A stretch of 64,000 nt of DNA from Natrarchaeobius oligotrophus (lineage in GTDB: Archaea; Halobacteriota; Halobacteria; Halobacteriales; Natrialbaceae): NCBI RefSeq assembly GCF_003841465.1, contig NZ_REFZ01000005.1, forward strand, positions 124,001 through 188,000, in the 5' to 3' direction. Of the stretch, positions 11,980 through 36,775 are shown piece after piece. The translations under genes and the position numbers were made by a program. Position 1 is the first letter of the stretch. Each line of letters starts with the position of its first letter. The notes beneath the pieces were generated by a model, which saw only the letters and a program-made list of their open reading frames with translations, was not told the origin of the DNA and searched no databases.

Positions 11980-12987
11980 CTAGTCGAGAAACTCGATCGT
12001 TCCGTCGAACTCGAGCGGAACCGATCCCTTCCGGTAACCCTCGACGTGGCCGTTCGGCCGGGCGCGGTAGACGACGGCCGGTCGGTGTCGGACGTCCGGT
12101 CGCTCGCTCCGGACGGCGTTCCAGACGTCGTCGCGGAAGCTCGAGCAATCGACGAACAGCACCGCGCCGCCGCCGTGGGCTGCCAGCTGACCGTTGACCT
12201 TCGTTTCGGCGGTGTCCCGGACCGCGGCGACCGGGCCGGCGGCGGAGCGATTCTTCGGCGGCTGCGGACGGGTCACTTCGACGAGAACGTTCGTCTCGTC
12301 GTCCGTCGCACGATAGTCCAGCGAGTGACCGGTCGTCACCTCGATCTCCGGAACGACGTCGTAGCCGGCGTCGGTCAGGATCTTCGCGGCGACGAACTCG
12401 CCGATCGCCGCGCTCATGCGAACGCGGTCGACGTGATCGCTGGTGCCGAGTTTCCCCGACATGACGTGACGGTACTCGTCGAGGGCACCGGTCTCGAGGA
12501 ACCGCTCGAGAAAGCGCGTCGTCTCCCGACGGCCGGCGTCGGGAAAGCCGGCGGCGTGTTCGCGAAAGAACGCGCGCGTCGATTCGCGTCCGTCCTTGGA
12601 CATGAACACCGGCAGGAAAAACCACGAGAGGTGCGGGTAGTCGGCCAGCCACGGATCCTCCTCGTGGAGCGTCGCGAGTAGCTCCCGCTGGGCCCACCGA
12701 GAGACGTGGTAGGGAACTTCCCTCCAGCCGAACTTGTCGGTCTTCCACAGCGACGAGGGCGTTTCGGTGTTGCCCATCCAGTAGGCGTCGTCGTCGCTAC
12801 GAGCGAAGAGCGCGACGTCGCCGTTTTGCATCTCGAAGCGATGGGTCTCCCAGTCGGCGCCGATGTCGAACATCGGCGCCACCGCGGTGGCGCCGATGTT
12901 CGATCGAAGCGGTTGAAGAATCTTCCGTCGAACTCGTTGCTCACTCCAGGTCGCGGGCGAATAACGAAAGCGAAGCGGCCGTGCCAC
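11980..12987 (-). CDS. conserved haloarchaeal protein (DUF5784-like)
   Basis: 335 residues starting with GTG. Well-conserved-looking blocks (MGNTETPSSLWKTDKFGW, SWFFLPVFMSKDGR, GHSLDYRATD and VLVEVTRPQPP) are those I associate with the haloarchaeal DUF5784 family. The C-terminal third (D..VLVEV...K) is compatible with a nuclease-like fold, but catalytic residues cannot be assigned. Codons about 29-41 are built on a perfect 38-bp palindrome plus a third copy of one arm, so the early mRNA can form a very stable hairpin. No signal or membrane segment. Function unknown. Confidence 0.85.
   Translation of the reverse strand: MARPLRFRYSPATWSEQRVRRKILQPLRSNIGATAVAPMFDIGADWETHRFEMQNGDVALFARSDDDAYWMGNTETPSSLWKTDKFGWREVPYHVSRWAQRELLATLHEEDPWLADYPHLSWFFLPVFMSKDGRESTRAFFREHAAGFPDAGRRETTRFLERFLETGALDEYRHVMSGKLGTSDHVDRVRMSAAIGEFVAAKILTDAGYDVVPEIEVTTGHSLDYRATDDETNVLVEVTRPQPPKNRSAAGPVAAVRDTAETKVNGQLAAHGGGAVLFVDCSSFRDDVWNAVRSERPDVRHRPAVVYRARPNGHVEGYRKGSVPLEFDGTIEFLD
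12866..12903. repeat. perfect 38-bp palindrome inside a coding sequence
   Basis: The 19-bp arm from 12866 to 12884 is the exact reverse complement of 12885-12903 with no spacer. In addition, GGCGCCGATG at 12856-12865 is an inverted copy of 12871-12880 and a direct copy of 12889-12898, so the same decamer occurs three times. It encodes residues about 29-41 of the DUF5784-like protein. Confidence 0.95.
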
Positions 12988-13088: not shown

Positions 13089-13262
13089 ATGTCAATGGGT
13101 GCCTATGACGAAGACGAACACGAGCGCCGCGAACAGCAGGCCTCGAGAGTCGATGCGGATTTCGACGACGAGCGGACGATCTACCACGGACAGGTCGAGT
13201 ACGATTCCGGCGACTCTGCGGAAGCGCTCCTGAACAAGTTCGAAGAGATCAAGTCGAACTAG
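13089..13262 (+). CDS. small conserved haloarchaeal protein (DUF5786-like)
   Basis: 57 residues: starts MSMGAYDEDEHERRE and ends LLNKFEEIKSN. The compact, highly charged sequence with a VDADFDDERTIYHG core is typical of a small haloarchaeal family that I recall as DUF5786. ATG 13089 gives the family N-terminus; the frame extends upstream without support. No membrane or metal motifs. It is divergent from the DUF5784-like gene, 101 bp between starts. Function unknown. Confidence 0.82.
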   Translation: MSMGAYDEDEHERREQQASRVDADFDDERTIYHGQVEYDSGDSAEALLNKFEEIKSN

Positions 13263-34726: not shown

Positions 34727-35566
34727 CGGGGCGTTCACCAGATTACCCCACTCGGTCCAGGACCCGTCGTAGTTGACGGCGTCCTCGTAGCCGAGCAGTT
34801 CGTGGAGGGCGAACCAGGCGACCGACGAGCGCTCGCCGATGCGGCAGTAGGCGACGGTCGTCTCCTCGCCGGTGATTCCCTCCTCGGCGTACAGCTCCTC
34901 GAGTTCATCGCGGTCTTTGAAGGTGCCGTCGTCGTTGGTGACCGCGGCCCACGAGATGTTCTTCGCGCCGGGGATGTGGCCGCCGCGCTGGGCGGTCTCC
35001 TGCAGTCCCGGCGGGGCGAGGATCTCGCCGCTGAACTCCTCGGGCGAGCGGACGTCGACGAGGGGGACGCCGCGTTCGATCGCGTTCTCGACGTCCTCGC
35101 GGTAGGCGCGGACGTTCTCGCGCGGGCCGGCGGCGTCGTACTCGACCGCCGAGAAATCGGGTTCCTCGTCGGTCGTCGGGTAGTCGTTCTCGAGCCAGAA
35201 CTCGCGGCCGCCGTCCAACAGGTAGGCGTCCTCGTGACCGTAGTATTTGAGCTGCCAGTAGGTGTAGGCGGCGAACCAGTTCGAGTTGTCGCCGTAGAGG
35301 ACGACCGTCGAGTCCTCGCTGATGCCGTGACTGCCCAGCAGGTCCTCGAAGTCCTCCTTCGAGAGGACGTCGCGTCGCGTCTGGTCTTGCAGTTGCGTCT
35401 CCCAGTTGAAGCCGATCGCGCCGGGGGCGTGTGCCTCCTCGTAGGCTTCCGTGTCGACGTCGACCTCGACGAGGCGGAGGTCGGCGTCGTCGCTCTGGAA
35501 CTCTTCGAGTCGGTCCTCGACCCAGTCGGCGGTGACGAGTACGTCGTTGGCGTATTCTGTTGCCAT
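34703..35566 (-). CDS. two-domain thiosulfate sulfurtransferase (rhodanese)
   Basis: 287 residues, two rhodanese domains. The catalytic Cys241 lies in AYCRIGERSS of the second domain, the inactive N-terminal domain has the matching GDNSN. HAPGAIGFNWE and GHIPGAKNISW are the CH2-type signatures. It transfers sulfane sulfur from thiosulfate to acceptors such as cyanide or protein thiols. No signal peptide. It is divergent from a second sulfurtransferase gene with 282 bp between starts. Its last codons and stop are repeated downstream. Confidence 0.93.
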   Translation of the reverse strand: MATEYANDVLVTADWVEDRLEEFQSDDADLRLVEVDVDTEAYEEAHAPGAIGFNWETQLQDQTRRDVLSKEDFEDLLGSHGISEDSTVVLYGDNSNWFAAYTYWQLKYYGHEDAYLLDGGREFWLENDYPTTDEEPDFSAVEYDAAGPRENVRAYREDVENAIERGVPLVDVRSPEEFSGEILAPPGLQETAQRGGHIPGAKNISWAAVTNDDGTFKDRDELEELYAEEGITGEETTVAYCRIGERSSVAWFALHELLGYEDAVNYDGSWTEWGNLVNAPVEKGEAE

Positions 35567-35848
35567 ACTCGACCGGACGGGCGGAACGGTCATAGTGGCT
35601 CTCGATGCGGACAATTCGGACGCCGCTCGACCGTCACGGAGATGGTTGCCGCTACCTCGGACGGCGGTCCGACGGCCGAGATCACCCTCCGTCCACGTCC
35701 AGTGTTTTATACCCACCACCGTCACGCGTGTGTTTCGAAACGCCAACATATTCGGGCGGCGGGGGCAAGTATTGCCACCAGCTCGGTACCCAGGGGAGAC
35801 GTGCCGGGAACGGTGCGTTATCGGCGGTCCGGAGCCACGAATCGATCG

Positions 35849-36643
35849 ATGGACGAATCCGTCGTCGTCTCGCCCGACTGGCTGGCAGCGCGACTCGAGG
35901 AACCGGGAGTTCGCATCGTCGACGTCAGAGACCCCTGGGAGTACGAGGGGATCGGCCACGTTCCGGGTGCCGTCAGCGTGCCGTTCGACAGCTACCGCGA
36001 CGAGAGCGACGTCGACCGCGGCACGCTGCCAGGCGCGAAGGCGTTCGCCGAACTGCTGTCGGGGGTCGGTATCGCACCCGAAGACGCGATCGTCGCCTAC
36101 GACGACACCCACGGCGTCTTCGCCGCCCGGTTCGTACTCACCGCGCTCGAGTACGGCCACGACGACGTTCGCCTGCTCGACGGCGACTACAGCGCCTGGA
36201 ACCGCACCTACGAGACGACGACCGACGAACCCGACCTCGAGCCGACGGCGTACGAGGCCGATCCCCTCTCGCGCGAGGAGAGTCCGCTGGTGGGACTCGT
36301 GGCTGTCGAGGACGCCCTCGAGCGCGGCGCGCTCTTCGTCGACACGCGCGAAGACCACGAGTTCGAGGAGGCGCATCTCCCGGGTGCCGTGCGCTTCGAC
36401 TGGCGCGAAGTCGTCGACGACGAGACGCGGCGGCTGAAAGCCGAGGACGAACTCGAGGACGTACTCGGCGAGTACGGAATCACACCCGACCGAGAGATCG
36501 TCCTCTACTGCAACACCGCACGCCGGATCAGCCACACGTACGTCGTCCTCCGGGCGCTCGGCTACGACGACGTCGCCTTCTACGAGGGGAGTCTGACGGA
36601 GTGGCTGGCGAACGACGGCGAGATCGAGACGGGACCCGCCTGA
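35849..36643 (+). CDS. two-domain sulfurtransferase (rhodanese)
   Basis: 264 residues, paralogue of the divergent gene. IVDVRDPWEYEGIGHVPGAV marks the first domain and FVDTREDHEFEEAHLPGAV the second; Cys221 in YCNTARRIS is the active-site loop. ARR in place of the ER-type loop of its neighbour suggests a different acceptor or substrate (3-mercaptopyruvate enzymes are more neutral here), but the specificity is not readable. ATG 35849 gives the family start. Cytoplasmic. Confidence 0.92.
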   Translation: MDESVVVSPDWLAARLEEPGVRIVDVRDPWEYEGIGHVPGAVSVPFDSYRDESDVDRGTLPGAKAFAELLSGVGIAPEDAIVAYDDTHGVFAARFVLTALEYGHDDVRLLDGDYSAWNRTYETTTDEPDLEPTAYEADPLSREESPLVGLVAVEDALERGALFVDTREDHEFEEAHLPGAVRFDWREVVDDETRRLKAEDELEDVLGEYGITPDREIVLYCNTARRISHTYVVLRALGYDDVAFYEGSLTEWLANDGEIETGPA

Positions 36644-36775
36644 CTCGACGCGAACGACCGGCTGACGGGTCGTTCGCGTCGAATTCCGTCGGACACGGTT
36701 CGTTTGCGTCGTCGAAACCCTCGAGTTCGATCTTTTCAGGCCGTATGGTACGTATTCACCGTCCGATCCAGGGTA

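Follow-up and report, generated by a model that had tools for sequence, protein, structure and literature searches.

A perfect 38-bp palindrome private to one haloarchaeal DUF5784 gene: a plausible template-switch scar or an extreme chance case

Template-switch mutation associated with quasi-palindromes is established in lacZ reporters of E. coli (PMC7202029), and the same mechanism also in natural genes of yeast (PMC8604942). In the E. coli work, a local change for which the nascent strand serves as template makes an imperfect inverted repeat perfect or more nearly so, and the haloarchaeal locus described below would be comparable in this respect; unlike the lacZ case, its event is deduced from a comparison of species and not observed. 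With the homogenisation of inverted-repeat arms in S. cerevisiae (PMC8604942), it shares a perfect inverted repeat of one lineage within a coding gene, a change of adjacent bases and the replacement of an amino acid, but the yeast arms measure 7–16 bp and closely related strains polarise the change, whereas here the arm has 19 bp and the gene shares 86% DNA identity with its nearest relative. The coding palindromes of Nematomorpha mitochondria (PMC6649704) are likewise perfect inverted repeats in which both arms encode conserved protein; there they occur in large number and reach 284 bp, against a single one of 38 bp here. In open-licence PubMed Central, no paper on template switching or quasi-palindromes in archaea or haloarchaea was found, which does not show their absence from print, and none on DUF5784.

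The window, i.e. the whole stretch of 64,000 nucleotides of Natrarchaeobius oligotrophus that was analysed, carries the palindrome at nt 85–122 (codons 29–41) of a minus-strand DUF5784 gene (Table 1). The two arms (12866–12884 and 12885–12903) comprise 19 nt each and are 100% complementary with 0 nt between them, in agreement with the preliminary description, which had claimed an uninterrupted self-complementary sequence of 38 bp. Three copies of the arm core in alternating orientation had also been claimed and were found: GGCGCCGATG occurs three times within 43 bp, at 12856–12865 (+), 12871–12880 (−) and 12889–12898 (+), and these are its only sites in the 64-kb window, where 0.58 are expected. 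A second perfect inverted repeat is formed by 12856–12866 with 12870–12880 (11-bp arms, 3-nt loop). The palindrome stretch encodes the peptide NIGATAVAPMFDIGAD, residues 30–45 of the DUF5784 protein; the frame is kept, as described, the length agrees with that of orthologues, and the assignment to a DUF5784-like gene holds by the Pfam match.

Table 1 Features of the palindrome locus (positions of the window)
Feature	Position	Strand	Basis or remark
Perfect spacerless palindrome, 38 bp	12866..12903	.	Complementarity, genome scan, orthologue comparison
Third arm copy GGCGCCGATGT	12856..12866	+	Pairs with 12870–12880 as second inverted repeat
Codon 39 ATG (Met), change private to the species	12871..12873	−	Column frequencies, 122 relatives
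Codon 34 ACC (Thr), uncommon, with repeated occurrence in the family	12886..12888	−	5/134 rows; ≥4 changes by the tree
Codon 37 GCG (Ala), seen repeatedly in the family	12877..12879	−	11/134 rows; ≥6 changes by the tree
DUF5784 gene, 335 aa, GTG start at 12987	11980..12987	−	Pfam PF19096, E 6.3e-171; contains the palindrome

The host gene was matched in 123 of 125 family genomes, the own genome included, and in all 111 of good quality. Its predicted structure (mean pLDDT 89.8) places residue 39 in a loop between strands 34–36 and 47–52. Most close relatives encode S-N-I-G-A-x-A-V-x-P-x-F-[DE]-I-G-[AG] at this place, and across 26 diverse proteins G32 never varies and N30 and P38 hardly do.

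For comparison within the own genome, 61 stretches with a total of 1,260,000 bases (about 27% of the genome) were scanned for palindromes. Spacerless arms of 10, 11, 12, 13 and 19 nt were obtained 10, 3, 5, 3 and 1 times, respectively, the sole 19-nt arm being that of the palindrome at 12866–12903 and the next longest measuring 13. In two relatives, scanned over 400 kb each, the longest spacerless arms were 11 and 13, and the longest in any other copy of the gene (134 orthologous rows) was 11. The length of the palindrome is thus exceptional for this genome.

Orthologues were collected by a family-wide search and by a scan of a second collection (63 loci), giving 186 loci with 135 distinct gene sequences. 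Column frequencies were taken from 122 family rows, 12 further rows not being used for them; one distant row, L186, was dropped from the tree and the arm counts, and gapped rows were dropped from the folding comparison, with 134 rows remaining. None of the 122 distinct family rows besides that of the window contains the perfect palindrome, which is therefore private to this species among the relatives compared. In its place the relatives have an imperfect inverted repeat that forms 5–14 of the 19 arm pairs; L002 and L016, which stand nearest on the tree, form 10 and 8 and are far from palindromic. No insertion was present between codons 24 and 60 in any of the 186 loci, and a gap within codons 29–48 was seen in L186 alone.

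Since length does not change among the relatives, the palindrome did not arise by insertion. Palindromic elements of the Rickettsia type are in-frame insertions that are absent from orthologues and have copies elsewhere in the genome; here, the loci are of equal length and no exact match to a 14-base arm pattern was found elsewhere in the genome. An inserted mobile palindrome was ruled out on these two grounds, the equal length and the missing second genomic copy of the arm.

The preliminary description had considered selection for an RNA or DNA hairpin near the 5′ end of the message. Such selection in this species, whether for a 5′ mRNA hairpin, a DNA cruciform or a protein-binding site (e.g. 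an attenuator, a stability element or a regulator site), would fit the folding results, as the minus-strand RNA folds better than shuffled sequences (z −3.1 for 231 nt) and the window row has the lowest folding energy of the 134 (−46.9 kcal/mol vs a median of −29.1 for 81 nt). Against it, the palindrome is missing in all 122 family relatives and the window row alone reaches this energy; no further site with the full 19-nt arm was found in the 1.26 Mb scanned, an exact search of the whole genome with the 14-base arm pattern hit the two arms and nothing else, and the sole Rfam match is weak (15.3 bits vs a gathering score of 65.3). The relatives lend selection for a hairpin no support, and we consider it very improbable; there is no reason seen to assign the palindrome a function. 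A conserved hairpin or structured RNA was ruled out, as the symmetry is kept by no orthologue examined. An alignment of orthologues had been proposed at the outset, with similar residues in non-palindromic codons as the result that would speak against the claim; this is largely what was obtained, and it tells against the conserved-hairpin reading.

An artefact of sequencing or assembly, by fold-back or chimeric reads, would have to be thought of in a draft genome of 69 contigs, and hairpins are difficult to sequence. However, the reading frame, the length and the conserved residues are all intact, which is unlikely to result from fold-back, and the site lies about 136.9 kb inside a 335.7-kb contig; this explanation is scarcely credible.

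The motif [N/D]-I-G-A occurs twice around the variable loop. Written in common codons, the doubled motif supplies the greater part of both arms and of the third copy, and thereby explains most of the symmetry. The third arm copy requires no special event, corresponding to the D-I-G-A stretch of the protein. When synonymous codons were drawn by genome usage for the peptide of the window (2,000,000 draws), 15 or 16 of 19 pairs was the commonest outcome and all 19 pairs formed in 0.85% of the draws; because ordinary codons reach full pairing at this rate, the rarity of the palindrome stems mostly from the peptide and less from codon choice. The sequence GACATCGGCGCC is present in 4 of 134 rows, the window counted. 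From the column make-up of the 122 relatives, 9.5 of 19 pairs are expected at the palindrome centre, compared with a mean of 5.3 for the gene, and no other of the 967 centres in the gene is as likely to reach full symmetry, the probability being about 1.5 × 10−9 under independent columns.

The remaining pairs are settled by variable residues between the two motifs, namely Thr34, Ala37 and Met39. Of the 134 rows, 8 have threonine at position 34 and 22 have alanine at position 37, for which the tree requires no fewer than 6 and 14 changes, respectively; ATG at codon 39 occurs in a single row, that of the window. The second base T of this codon is found in 0 of 122 relatives and the first base A in 4, and just 5% and 3% of relatives form its two pairs. 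The AT of codon 39 comprises two adjacent bases, both of which either neighbouring arm copy would template, an agreement that the choice of a perfectly symmetric sequence ensures by itself. In L030, L045 and L048 (group g10), the second hairpin has 9 of its 11 pairs and is unpaired exactly at this dinucleotide.

Template switching, which the preliminary description had suggested as a recent event, fits these observations best in a restricted form, as the correction of a quasi-palindrome already partly present in relatives, at a variable loop of the protein; it is unproven, and we hold it with slightly better than even confidence. Under this reading, the doubled [N/D]-I-G-A in GC-rich haloarchaeal codons would have provided a standing quasi-palindrome, and ordinary substitutions (Thr34, Ala37 and synonymous third bases) would have brought the arms near to complementarity in this lineage. 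A switch of template by the polymerase within the hairpin would then have copied one arm, or the third copy across the 3-nt loop, into the other, changing the two adjacent bases of codon 39 to AT and the residue to Met39, so that all copies now agree; what remains in the protein loop would be a scar that is neutral or almost so, with no function of its own. That a single template-switch event produced the dinucleotide change, and that the events came in this order, is what we infer from the sequences. With no more than 10 and 8 of 19 pairs in the nearest rows, the lineage must first have gone through several ordinary changes; codon 39 could have been reached by two single steps.

The density of differences in the stretch was not exceptional: 9 differences from L002 in 38 nt correspond to a relative density of 1.62, and equal or higher values were obtained for 14 of 70 rows, each compared with its closest row. 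A local cluster in which changes lie more densely than elsewhere in the gene would be a supporting sign of template switching, and no such cluster is seen here. Of 967 segments of 38 nt, 23 contain at least 3 rare bases. The differences from L002, L016, L030 or L026 each touch a separate pair and equal the number of pairs open there, and L028 and L014 show a few differences beyond the open-pair count; that each pair open in a relative is closed in the window is largely due to the choice of a perfect palindrome. First- and second-position changes are in excess in the stretch compared with three congeners (Fisher p 0.007–0.04). This excess was dropped as evidence, because the stretch is somewhat richer in such changes family-wide too (0.38 vs 0.27).

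Palindromes elsewhere in the coding DNA were assessed in 406 genes, i.e. long ORFs of the own genome (L195–L254 and the window) filtered by composition, which contain no arms above 13 and do not include the DUF5784 gene. Compared with synonymous shuffles alone, coding palindromes were in about two-fold excess; with dinucleotides also preserved, this was mostly gone and a slight excess remained. The genome-wide surplus was accordingly not retained as support. Only spacerless arms of at least 12 nt stayed clearly in excess and speak for template switching: they numbered 4 in this set, against 0.2 in shuffles preserving protein and dinucleotides, both being small counts. Besides a fifth located in L224, four other long palindromes (arms 12–13) were compared with relatives; they are species-specific too and imperfect in all aligned relatives, so that species-specificity alone is not telling.

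Chance drift is a serious rival to template switching. It holds that independent single substitutions at variable codons completed the palindrome, predisposed by the doubled motif and the narrow, GC-rich codons, and that a reader seeking outliers noticed the result. It is serious because the stretch is not rich in changes and because choosing a perfect palindrome makes mispairs in relatives look repaired; it further agrees with the probability of 0.0085 for all 19 pairs given the peptide, with the palindrome centre being the most predisposed of 967, with the recurrence of Thr34 and Ala37 in the family and with the loss of most of the excess of shorter coding palindromes once dinucleotides are kept. 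It is opposed by an arm length of 19 far above the next longest of 13 in 1.26 Mb, by the value of about 1 × 10−9 that independent columns give for the centre, and by the private step being an adjacent two-base change that both arms would template. We regard chance as a real possibility that falls short of probable. The palindrome is thus either a further instance of a mutational scar of known type or an extreme product of chance, the template-switch reading being plausible but unproven.

If it is a template-switch scar, the locus would extend to archaea, by a natural case, a mutational route already described in bacteria and yeast. This route alters neighbouring bases in a single step and can mimic positive selection. 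A wider reading, that homogenisation of inverted-repeat arms by template switching reshapes haloarchaeal coding DNA and replaces amino acids, with the palindrome as its clearest scar and arms of at least 12 nt marking further events, appears doubtful to us. For readers of raw sequence, the locus advises caution, since a striking coding palindrome can rest on a doubled motif, narrow codons and one local event.

Further inverted repeats were noted in passing. One with 15-bp arms and an 8-nt spacer lies at 36645–36682, right after the stop of the ORF at 34802–36643 (+), and is possibly a transcription terminator or an mRNA 3′ end signal. An identical 36-nt inverted repeat with 13-bp arms is present at two places of the own genome, L235:10643–10678 and L215:9462–9497, within 82 nt of exact identity, and is perhaps a small repeat element.

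The predicted model of the DUF5784 protein gave weak but consistent matches to nucleases (Hjc, HindIII, SfsA, DdmD and others), all with E > 0.001, several of which we take to be of the PD-(D/E)XK type. Residues D224, E237, K263 and Q267 are invariant in 26 of 26 proteins and would presumably suit an active-site motif of that type. The divergent neighbour of the DUF5784 gene is a DUF5786 gene (13089–13262, +); among 93 loci, 83 have a relative within the flanking sequence covered.
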